In this document: one piece after another, positions 38,933-41,059 of the stretch
How the letters are laid out: each line of letters starts with the position of its first letter
How positions within the stretch are numbered: position 1 is the stretch's first letter
From: Exiguobacterium sp. J17977
GTDB taxonomy: Bacteria; Bacillota; Bacilli; Exiguobacteriales; Exiguobacteriaceae
Length of the DNA stretch: 64,000 bases
Assembly: GCF_018616375.1 (NCBI RefSeq)
Contig: NZ_JAEQBB010000005.1
Location: 124,001-188,000 of the forward strand
Direction of reading: 5' to 3'
Program-made: the position numbers and the translations under genes
Notes under the pieces: generated by a model
Databases searched by the model: none
What the model saw: the letters and a program-made list of their open reading frames with translations, nothing else
Told to the model about the DNA's origin: nothing

Positions 38933-39103
38933 GAAAACCCCATCCTTCTCCCCTGGATTTGTGTATGAGACGATTCGGTAAATCCCCATTCGCCGACTCG
39001 CCCCGTTTATAATTGTTATATTGATTATAACGCTTTTGTGATGTTTGATAAGGGTTAAGTACGGATTTCATCCATGAAACTTTTGAAGGGGGGCATGCAA
39101 TCC

Positions 39104-39565
39104 GTGAAGCGCGGCATCCGTTTTAAAATCCCGAATACATATGGACGCTTTCTGGCCGACATGTTGAGTCCCATCGATATCACCTCTTACAGCTGGTTCG
39201 TCGGTGGTGAGGAATCGTATCGTGTGAAGAACGGCGACCTCGATCAACCGTTGTTTCCTGGAGAGACCGAGGTAGATGGAGAAACGTTTTCTCATTTGAT
39301 TCATCAGGATGAGCACTATCTCATCTTCGCGAATTTAAAGGCCTTTTCGAAAGGACCGGTGAAAGACATTGAGACGTATGAGGCGTTTCGTGATAGCCAT
39401 TGTGACCTTGCCCTGCTCATCGTCGACTCCACGTTCGTCGATATGTACTGCAAAGATCAACAAATGATTGAATCACTCTATACGCACGCCCTATCCCGTT
39501 CCTTTGAGGACGTCGCCTATTTGACCGACGTCAACGATACGAGGACGAGTTTGACCGTCTGGTAA
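39104..39565 (+). CDS. DUF2691-like protein
   Basis: A 153-residue soluble protein of unknown function. MKRGIRFKIPNTYGRFLADMLSPIDI resembles my recollection of DUF2691 proteins found in Bacillus relatives. The GTG at 39104 gives the family-typical MKRGI start and has AAGGGGGG about ten bases upstream; an ATG at 39074 is in frame but lacks an SD. It precedes the histidine phosphatase gene by 32 bases, in the same direction, and may be cotranscribed. Confidence 0.6.
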   Translation: MKRGIRFKIPNTYGRFLADMLSPIDITSYSWFVGGEESYRVKNGDLDQPLFPGETEVDGETFSHLIHQDEHYLIFANLKAFSKGPVKDIETYEAFRDSHCDLALLIVDSTFVDMYCKDQQMIESLYTHALSRSFEDVAYLTDVNDTRTSLTVW

Positions 39566-39597
39566 GCACCCAACCCTATAACGAAGGAGGATCCATC

Positions 39598-40149
39598 ATG
39601 TCTACGTTCTATCTCATCCGTCATTGCTCGGCGACTGGCCAAGAACCGGACGCCCCACTCACTGAAGACGGCGAACAACAAGCACTCGCCCTTGCTGACT
39701 TCTTTCGAGACATTCCCGTCGACCGCATCATCTCGAGCGACTATACGCGAGCTACTGCCTCGATCGCACCACTCGCCACATCCAAGCAACTGACCATCGA
39801 GACGGAGCCGAGGTTGCGCGAACGCATCCTCTCGCTCGAACCGCGCGACGATTGGTTCGAACTGCTCCGTCATTCGTTCACCGATGCCTCGTTCCGTGTG
39901 CCGGGTGCCGAGTCAGGTCAAGATGCGACGGACCGGATTTTGAGCGTCATCGAATCACTCGACGACGTAAACGGCACGACCGTCCTCGTGACACACGGCA
40001 ACCTGCTTGCACTACTTCTTCAACATGTGGATAACCGCTTCGACTTCGACACGTGGCGCACACTCAGTAATCCCGACGTCTATCGCCTCAAAGTTGTGGA
40101 TAACTCTTGGGCCGTGGAACGCGTCTGGTCCGTCCCTGCCTGTGGATAA
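39598..40149 (+). CDS. Histidine phosphatase family protein
   Basis: A 183-residue phosphoglycerate-mutase-like phosphatase. The N-terminal LIRHCSATG carries the nucleophilic His (RHC instead of the usual RHG), followed by Arg in SSDYTRATAS and a second His in LVTHGNLLA (about 124). The natural substrate is unknown. AAGGAGG precedes the ATG. Unusually, the last 125 bases contain three perfect DnaA boxes, the third of which contains the stop codon, with a fourth immediately after. Confidence 0.88.
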   Translation: MSTFYLIRHCSATGQEPDAPLTEDGEQQALALADFFRDIPVDRIISSDYTRATASIAPLATSKQLTIETEPRLRERILSLEPRDDWFELLRHSFTDASFRVPGAESGQDATDRILSVIESLDDVNGTTVLVTHGNLLALLLQHVDNRFDFDTWRTLSNPDVYRLKVVDNSWAVERVWSVPACG

Positions 40150-40160
40150 CGTTATCCACA
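40026..40160. other. Cluster of four perfect DnaA boxes
   Basis: TGTGGATAA at 40026-40034, 40095-40103 and 40141-40149, and TTATCCACA at 40152-40160. All four equal the strongest DnaA box (TTATCCACA) or its complement. The last two face each other in a perfect 22-base palindrome (40140-40161). No such box was noticed elsewhere in the window. The cluster covers the 3' end of the histidine phosphatase gene and the gap before its terminator. Confidence 0.8.
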
Positions 40161-40162
40161 GA

Positions 40163-40194
40163 AAAAGCCGTCTCGTAAATGAGACGGCTTTCGT
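40163..40194. terminator. Bidirectional terminator
   Basis: AAAGCCGTCTC / GAGACGGCTTT hairpin between the phosphatase and degV genes. Confidence 0.85.
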
Positions 40195-40195
40195 T

Positions 40196-41059
40196 TTATT
40201 TCTCCACAAAGAACATCGAGATGGCCCCAAGACCGACATGCGTCCCGACCGAGACGCCCATCTGCATGAGGTAAATCTCGCCGTCAAAGTCGGATTCGGC
40301 TTGAATCTTCGCCTTCAAGTTCTCGGCAATCTTTTGATCTGACGTATAGCCGATGATGACAAAGTTGGTAATGTCCTTGTCGCAGCGTTTGATGAACTCG
40401 TCCGTATAGTGCTTGAGCACTTTTCGCGTTCCCCGCTCTTTGGCGACGATGGCCCCTTTGCCGTTCTTCATACTCATGATCGGCTTGACCATCAACAGCT
40501 TTCCGATGATGGCACTCGCGTTCGAGATACGACCGCTCTTAATCAAGTGATCCAAGTCGTCGACCGACAAGAAGTGCTTCACTTTCAGCTTATACGTCTC
40601 GTTGAAGTCGACGAGCTCCTCGAACGTCGCCCCGGCTTCACGCATCTGGGCGCTCTTCATTAACAACCAACCGCTGCCATGGCTCATTGAGCGTGAGTCG
40701 ACGATATGAATTTTCACCGTCGAATCGGGATGCGCCTCTTCGAAATATTCTTTACCGAGCACGGCCGATTGATACGATCCGCTCGTCCCGCTCGACATGC
40801 AGATGCAAAGAATCTCGTCATGTCCGCTCTCGACAGCCTCTTCCATCAGCTTCATAAATGTCGCCGGGCTCGGCATCCCCGTCGTCGGGAATTCCGGTAG
40901 CGCTTCCAACATTCCGTAAAACTCATCGGGTTGGATGTCGACACGGTCCTCATACGATTTATTGTCAATCGTAATGATGAGCGGCGCGACGCCAATCTCA
41001 TATTTTGCTAAAATCTCATCGGATAAATCGCAAGTTGAATCTGCTAGTAATTTAATCAT
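40196..41059 (-). CDS. DegV family fatty-acid-binding protein
   Basis: A 287-residue cytosolic protein of the DegV/FakB family, which binds a fatty acid and presents it to the FakA kinase for phospholipid synthesis. The opening MIKLLADSTCDLSDEILAKY, PTTGMPSPATF near residue 65 and CICMSSGTSGSYQSA near residue 97 are the family signatures. No FakA gene is adjacent, and which fatty acid it prefers is not predictable. ATG 41059 follows GGAGGG; the longer frame to 41071 starts inside that SD. Confidence 0.9.
   Translation of the reverse strand: MIKLLADSTCDLSDEILAKYEIGVAPLIITIDNKSYEDRVDIQPDEFYGMLEALPEFPTTGMPSPATFMKLMEEAVESGHDEILCICMSSGTSGSYQSAVLGKEYFEEAHPDSTVKIHIVDSRSMSHGSGWLLMKSAQMREAGATFEELVDFNETYKLKVKHFLSVDDLDHLIKSGRISNASAIIGKLLMVKPIMSMKNGKGAIVAKERGTRKVLKHYTDEFIKRCDKDITNFVIIGYTSDQKIAENLKAKIQAESDFDGEIYLMQMGVSVGTHVGLGAISMFFVEK

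Follow-up and report, generated by a model that had tools for sequence, protein, structure and literature searches.

A DnaA-box cluster near oriC of Exiguobacterium as a probable site of DnaA titration

The 64,000-nucleotide stretch of the Exiguobacterium sp. J17977 genome analysed here (G000:C22:124001-188000, hereafter the window) belongs to a 2.94-Mb draft assembly in 27 contigs and carries a tight group of four perfect DnaA boxes at the end of a histidine phosphatase family gene. We propose, with a probability of roughly 0.72, that this group, termed DBC-B, is a DnaA-box cluster close to oriC that is bound by the replication initiator DnaA and lowers the level of free DnaA after initiation, a cluster of the kind described in Bacillus subtilis that is situated at a new place. 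By taking up DnaA, it would probably help to restrain repeated initiation. We infer DnaA binding from the perfect boxes, from the canonical DnaA encoded by the genome and from a palindrome core common to DBC-B and oriC; the role as a DnaA sink is proposed by analogy with B. subtilis. Judging from patterns of nucleotide conservation, the boxes are under selection as DNA sites.

Four DnaA boxes conserved at a phosphatase gene

Scanning the window for TTATCCACA returned exactly four perfect DnaA boxes, all within 135 bp (40026-40160, Table 1). These are the same four boxes that had been reported in the initial annotation, which had also described the last two as a perfect 22-base palindrome and had considered a chance cluster highly unlikely. 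Both statements proved correct. Dinucleotide-preserving shuffles of the window contained 0.15 perfect boxes on average and none of 100 shuffles reached four, while only 4e-9 equally tight four-box sets are expected when the 25 perfect boxes of the assembly are placed randomly genome-wide; chance was rejected on these grounds. The described placement in coding sequence and at a stop codon was likewise recovered: boxes 1 and 2 lie inside the open reading frame, box 3 ends on the TAA stop, and box 4 occupies the 46-bp gap that separates the phosphatase gene from a convergent degV-family gene. The 20-bp core of the palindrome, TGTGGATAACGTTATCCACA, recurs in the oriC of the same genome, upstream of dnaA, and is also present in the oriC of G023, a genome of the sister genus.

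The cluster is kept at the phosphatase gene in 12 of the 19 genus genomes, conservation that the initial annotation had recommended checking. All four boxes are intact at identical offsets in ten of these genomes, three perfect boxes are found in the other two (G009 and G018), and the remaining seven genomes have none. Five of these seven carry the phosphatase gene with its degV neighbour and no boxes; degV adjoins the phosphatase gene in all 17 genus loci examined. The other two, G003 and G013, lack an ortholog (G013 has only a weak match, 3.4e-6) and are therefore uninformative about box loss at the gene. Within the 12 box-bearing genomes, box 1 is perfect in ten, with one mismatch in G009, box 2 is perfect in 11, and boxes 3 and 4 are each perfect in all 12. 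Two genomes with altered phosphatase genes nonetheless retain perfect boxes. In G005 (C1:423664-424203), the phosphatase frame is broken by an internal TGA ahead of box 1, yet none of the four boxes has a mismatch; this is a single case, and a sequencing error could account for the stop. In G018 (C6), a frame-preserving deletion of ~69 bp from box 1 to box 2 leaves one box instead of two. The deletion spans the direct repeats that these boxes form, as if recombination had taken place between them, or as could arise from an assembly artefact.

Conservation at synonymous positions was assessed in a codon test covering 11 box-bearing genomes (G018 was excluded for its deletion) and all codons, stop included, whose amino acid is invariant and degenerate. 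Where the third base falls within a box, it is identical in all genomes at 7 of 7 codons, compared with 12 of 94 codons elsewhere in the phosphatase gene (Fisher p = 2.9e-6, a value that serves only as a guide because the codons are few and share a common history). Both Asp codons within boxes are always GAT, whereas GAT and GAC both occur in each of the six other columns with an invariant Asp. Because the box codons are frozen at synonymous sites, selection acts on the DNA motif itself.

Table 1 Features of DBC-B and its surroundings, in window coordinates
Feature	Position	Strand	Description
DnaA box 1	40026-40034	-	TTATCCACA; within the phosphatase reading frame (last base of CAT, followed by GTG GAT AA)
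DnaA box 2	40095-40103	-	TTATCCACA; inside phosphatase coding sequence
DnaA box 3	40141-40149	-	TTATCCACA; codes for the final two residues of the phosphatase and the TAA stop
DnaA box 4	40152-40160	+	TTATCCACA; intergenic, inverted relative to box 3, 2-bp CG spacer
Perfect 22-bp palindrome	40140-40161		Boxes 3 and 4; 20-bp core TGTGGATAACGTTATCCACA
Histidine phosphatase family gene (His_Phos_1)	39598-40149	+	PF00300, 1.2e-26; host of boxes 1-3
degV-family gene	40196-41059	-	PF02645, 8e-75; convergent neighbour
Intrinsic-terminator-like hairpin	40164-40191	+	12 pairs, T-rich tail; immediately downstream of box 4, in the convergent intergenic gap
Possible weak fifth box	40200-40208	+	TTCTCCACA; one mismatch, in the degV 3' end

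The long stem of the terminator-like hairpin is largely kept in the alignment of the 12 box-bearing genomes. The number of such hairpins in the region is no evidence in itself, since two matches compare with a shuffle mean of 1.8. The position of the candidate fifth box reads TTYTCCACA in 9 of the 12 box-bearing genomes and may merely reflect degV codons. A scan of named genomes returned eight relatives of the phosphatase, five from Exiguobacterium (88-93% identity) and three from elsewhere (28%).

Box clusters on one side of oriC

The genome-wide scan that the initial annotation had called for found 25 perfect boxes in the assembly, against three for the same pattern read backwards, which served as a control for composition. 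Twelve of the 25 belong to oriC, nine of them upstream of dnaA (identified by Pfam) and three between dnaA and dnaN (the latter identified by eye). The 13 boxes outside oriC comprise the four of DBC-B at 62.3 kb, three in a cluster at 191.2 kb (DBC-A), two in a cluster at 26.8 kb (DBC-C) and four singles, with cluster distances measured to the oriC palindrome. All three clusters lie to the left of oriC, the side away from dnaN, so that oriC and three same-side clusters no more than 191 kb from it account for 21 of the 25 perfect boxes. The earlier remark that none of the usual oriC genes is nearby is accurate for the close surroundings of the cluster; the contig does, however, carry oriC with dnaA 62 kb further downstream, beyond the end of the window.

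This layout recurs across the genus. Box positions were listed for the 19 genus genomes, which contain 25-32 perfect boxes each. All 19 have DBC-C with two or more boxes, at 26.5-28.2 kb from oriC, and 15 have DBC-A with two or more boxes on the oriC contig, at 174-224 kb. The box spacing of DBC-A was found on another contig in G006, G013 and G018, and G003 has a single box at this locus. Where DBC-B and oriC share a contig, as in 10 of the 12 box-bearing genomes, 46.7-65.1 kb separate them. Apart from oriC and the three clusters, inspection of the 19 genomes by eye revealed only one further pair of perfect boxes within 160 bp, in G006, where it lies ~2 kb to the left of the oriC boxes.

The genome encodes YabA and a DnaA with a canonical DNA-binding domain (PF08299, 9.5e-32), whose helix-turn-helix stretch agrees in all but about one letter with that of the DnaA in PDB entry 8btg, presumably from B. 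subtilis. A connection with B. subtilis is provided by DBC-C, which is flanked by rlmH (PF02590), a gene that we take to be the same as B. subtilis yydA, and by a YyzF-like gene (PF14116); an htrA-like gene (assigned by eye) is close by. In an in vitro study, DnaA-binding region 8 of B. subtilis is located upstream of yydA and downstream of yyzF, with a dissociation constant of 0.16 uM for ATP-DnaA (PMC4447404). DBC-C is thus at the same locus as region 8, so that the clusters of Exiguobacterium are linked to sites with DnaA binding shown by experiment. According to the same study, region 4 (gcp/ydiF) is positioned between two 3' ends (PMC4447404), as is DBC-B.

DBC-C (G000:C22:199523-199543) consists of two perfect boxes and near-matches arranged in tandem, 12 bp apart, and a pair with this 12-bp tandem spacing is kept in 19 of 19 genus genomes. 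DBC-A (G000:C22:35091-35161) has three boxes between genes for an HxlR-type regulator and an S66 LD-carboxypeptidase, a gene context seen in the four genomes inspected (G000, G001, G003 and G007; Pfam for G000). One of its boxes abuts the likely ribosome-binding site of the peptidase gene and another falls in the first codons, so that DnaA could repress the peptidase. A single perfect box ~2 kb to the right of the dnaA-dnaN boxes was seen in G001, G002, G003, G012, G013 and G016, which are six of the seven genomes that lack DBC-B. The G002 copy sits in a recF-like gene (by eye).

DnaA titration and its alternatives

In the model that we favour, DnaA would occupy the DBC-B boxes with high affinity. 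At ~62 kb from oriC, DBC-B would be duplicated early: its copying very soon after each initiation would multiply the DnaA sinks at once and cause free DnaA to drop. This drop would help to delay the next initiation, alongside YabA and other regulators acting at oriC, and the phosphatase gene would be a mere host of the sites. Deletion of six DnaA-box clusters in B. subtilis (Okumura et al. 2012) resulted in early initiation, as recounted in two reviews (PMC5295017, PMC13220808). A further study (PMC12371093) reports for E. coli that boxes become more frequent near oriC and that free DnaA is under the control of the chromosome. The initial annotation had suggested a titration or regulatory locus like the B. 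subtilis clusters; the small number of clusters outside oriC, which both organisms share, and the conservation at the gene agree with this suggestion, and the titration itself we infer.

Several observations weigh against this interpretation. DBC-B is not essential to the genus, since it is missing from five genus genomes that have the gene, from two more that lack the gene, and from 13 homolog loci of the sister genus. Its partial placement inside a gene is unusual for a DnaA-box cluster: in the portion of the B. subtilis study considered, the eight strongest DnaA regions are intergenic, and those within genes (codV, rplB and others) bind more weakly (PMC4447404). The B. subtilis phenotype is described as strong only when all six clusters are deleted in one of the two reviews (PMC5295017/PMC13220808), which also states that no clusters with a significant role in initiation control have been identified in B. 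subtilis, unlike in E. coli. From the other comes the statement that ~ten-fold overproduction of DnaA did not cause over-initiation in B. subtilis. In light of these statements on the six-cluster phenotype and on DnaA overproduction, titration may be a minor control. A literature search on DnaA boxes in Exiguobacterium listed a single paper, on a Psychrobacter plasmid.

Among the alternatives, regulation of the host genes retains a small chance of being the main function. DnaA bound at DBC-B could block or end transcription at the phosphatase 3' end, or affect degV, and so couple these genes to the replication cycle, as the position of three boxes in the coding region and beside the hairpin would allow. 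However, no promoter-like site was detected near the boxes (the two matches in the region, at 39024-39051 and 40938-40965, compare with a shuffle mean of 2.2), and the phosphatase and degV genes both end at DBC-B, which is not where control of their promoters would be expected. In addition, the boxes persist in G005 despite the internal stop of its phosphatase gene, with the reservation noted above for this genome.

We regard as quite improbable an active role in which DBC-B changes the nucleotide state of DnaA, as the E. coli elements datA or DARS do. One feature does recall DARS: box 4 is inverted relative to boxes 1-3, and in DARS cores box I is opposite to boxes II and III, so that both have one inverted box beside boxes oriented the same way. 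The bioD-uvrB and rppH-mutH gaps of E. coli MG1655, which we take to be the DARS1 and DARS2 sites, in agreement with the map positions, both contain the arrangement (+)14(-)12(-) (start-to-start distances in bp, boxes with 0-2 mismatches), in which the 3' ends of the inverted pair face each other. In DBC-B, by contrast, the arrangement is -69-46-11+ and the 5' ends face each other. This opposite polarity and the other spacing of the inverted pair, with the next box 46 bp away, led us to reject DARS membership. The datA locus is likewise a box cluster outside oriC that restrains initiation; its core is intergenic, downstream of genes, and it differs in acting through IHF and ATP hydrolysis. A review reports B. 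subtilis to be without datA, DARS1, DARS2 and IHF; the Exiguobacterium genome was not itself searched for IHF.

There is even less to commend the idea that the repeats are kept for the protein, or that they reflect chance and common descent. The boxes do encode VDN twice and a Cys-Gly at the C terminus. Nevertheless, the third bases of the box codons are invariant, unlike those of most of the gene, the non-coding box 4 is as invariant as the coding boxes, and box-less homologs have other residues at the box positions. The codon test and the fixed non-coding box 4 led us to reject protein-level constraint. Least credible of all is a relic or back-up replication origin, which several boxes and a palindrome common to oriC might suggest: the dnaA gene and the 12 perfect boxes of the actual oriC are found 62 kb from DBC-B, the box arrangement apart from the palindrome is unlike that of oriC, and an origin was rejected for lack of an AT-rich unwinding region (G+C 0.44-0.63 in 100-bp windows, 39500-40699). 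Finally, a different motif-binding factor could occupy the sites instead of DnaA.

Origin of DBC-B and comparison with known systems

In the protein tree, a branch (support 92/94; 89% of bootstrap trees) separates the 12 box-bearing phosphatases from the others, and the same 12 genomes group together in a tree of the degV neighbour (100/100; 17 genus rows, no outgroup). In the sister genus, a phosphatase homolog scoring >140 bits occurs in 16 of 19 genomes, with 45-51% identity. No perfect boxes were found within 1.5 kb of 13 of these homolog loci, and no degV lies beside these 13 homologs, which makes their orthology less sure. Conservation of the cluster is thus limited to one clade, in that both the five box-less genus genomes with the gene and the 13 sister-genus loci are without it. 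This distribution is most simply explained by a single gain at the base of the clade; loss in the sister clade is a less simple alternative.

Box lists were compiled in full for four sister-genus genomes (G019, G021, G022 and G023) and in part for G030. Clusters to the left of oriC are found at about 119-127 and 97-104 kb in G019, G021 and G022, and a further cluster ~26 kb to the left has rlmH among its genes (checked in G022). G022 and G023 have another cluster ~17 kb to the right. In G022, this right-side cluster (C3:1420900-1423200) lies where guaB and a convergent gene, aminotransferase-like by eye, have their 3' ends, with one box inside the latter gene; its anatomy is that of DBC-B at a different locus, and a Pfam scan of the convergent gene gave no match. 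Since the sister genus has other clusters near oriC, the cluster loci appear to turn over while proximity to oriC stays.

On a tentative view, which we consider less likely than not, a regulated stock of DnaA sinks is maintained beside oriC while individual sites turn over. DBC-B would then have been born once, within the gene, at the base of the clade, selection would have shaped four perfect boxes into codons and a stop codon, and the total titration capacity near oriC would be selected rather than any single locus. In all seven genomes without DBC-B, the surroundings of the rlmH cluster hold one or two additional boxes. The same is true of three genomes that do carry DBC-B (G005, G006 and G014), which weakens the idea of a constant total, as do the small box counts and the restriction to two clades.

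Set against the B. subtilis clusters, DBC-B differs in having three of its four boxes in coding sequence or at the stop codon and in occurring in only part of the genus. The top B. subtilis regions, as given in the sections of the source used here, include no locus named degV (PMC4447404); a phosphatase homolog was not looked up there. In E. coli and Salmonella, boxes likewise accumulate towards oriC, an enrichment read as favourable for titration in the study cited above (PMC12371093). The pattern described there is a broad box density, whereas in Exiguobacterium the clusters are tight, occupy fixed loci and lie to one side of oriC.

DBC-B bears on how far DnaA titration reaches in the control of initiation beyond E. 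coli. Because DBC-B is synonymously frozen, was apparently gained once and is absent from close relatives that have the gene, it offers a clean comparison. Boxes 1 and 2 could be erased without changing the protein, so that effects on replication would be separable from effects on the gene. Both the placement of the clusters to one side of oriC and the rlmH cluster in common with B. subtilis point to a layout that is conserved in at least some of the Bacillales, and if total capacity near oriC is indeed what is selected, the genus would constitute a natural experiment for the titration model.
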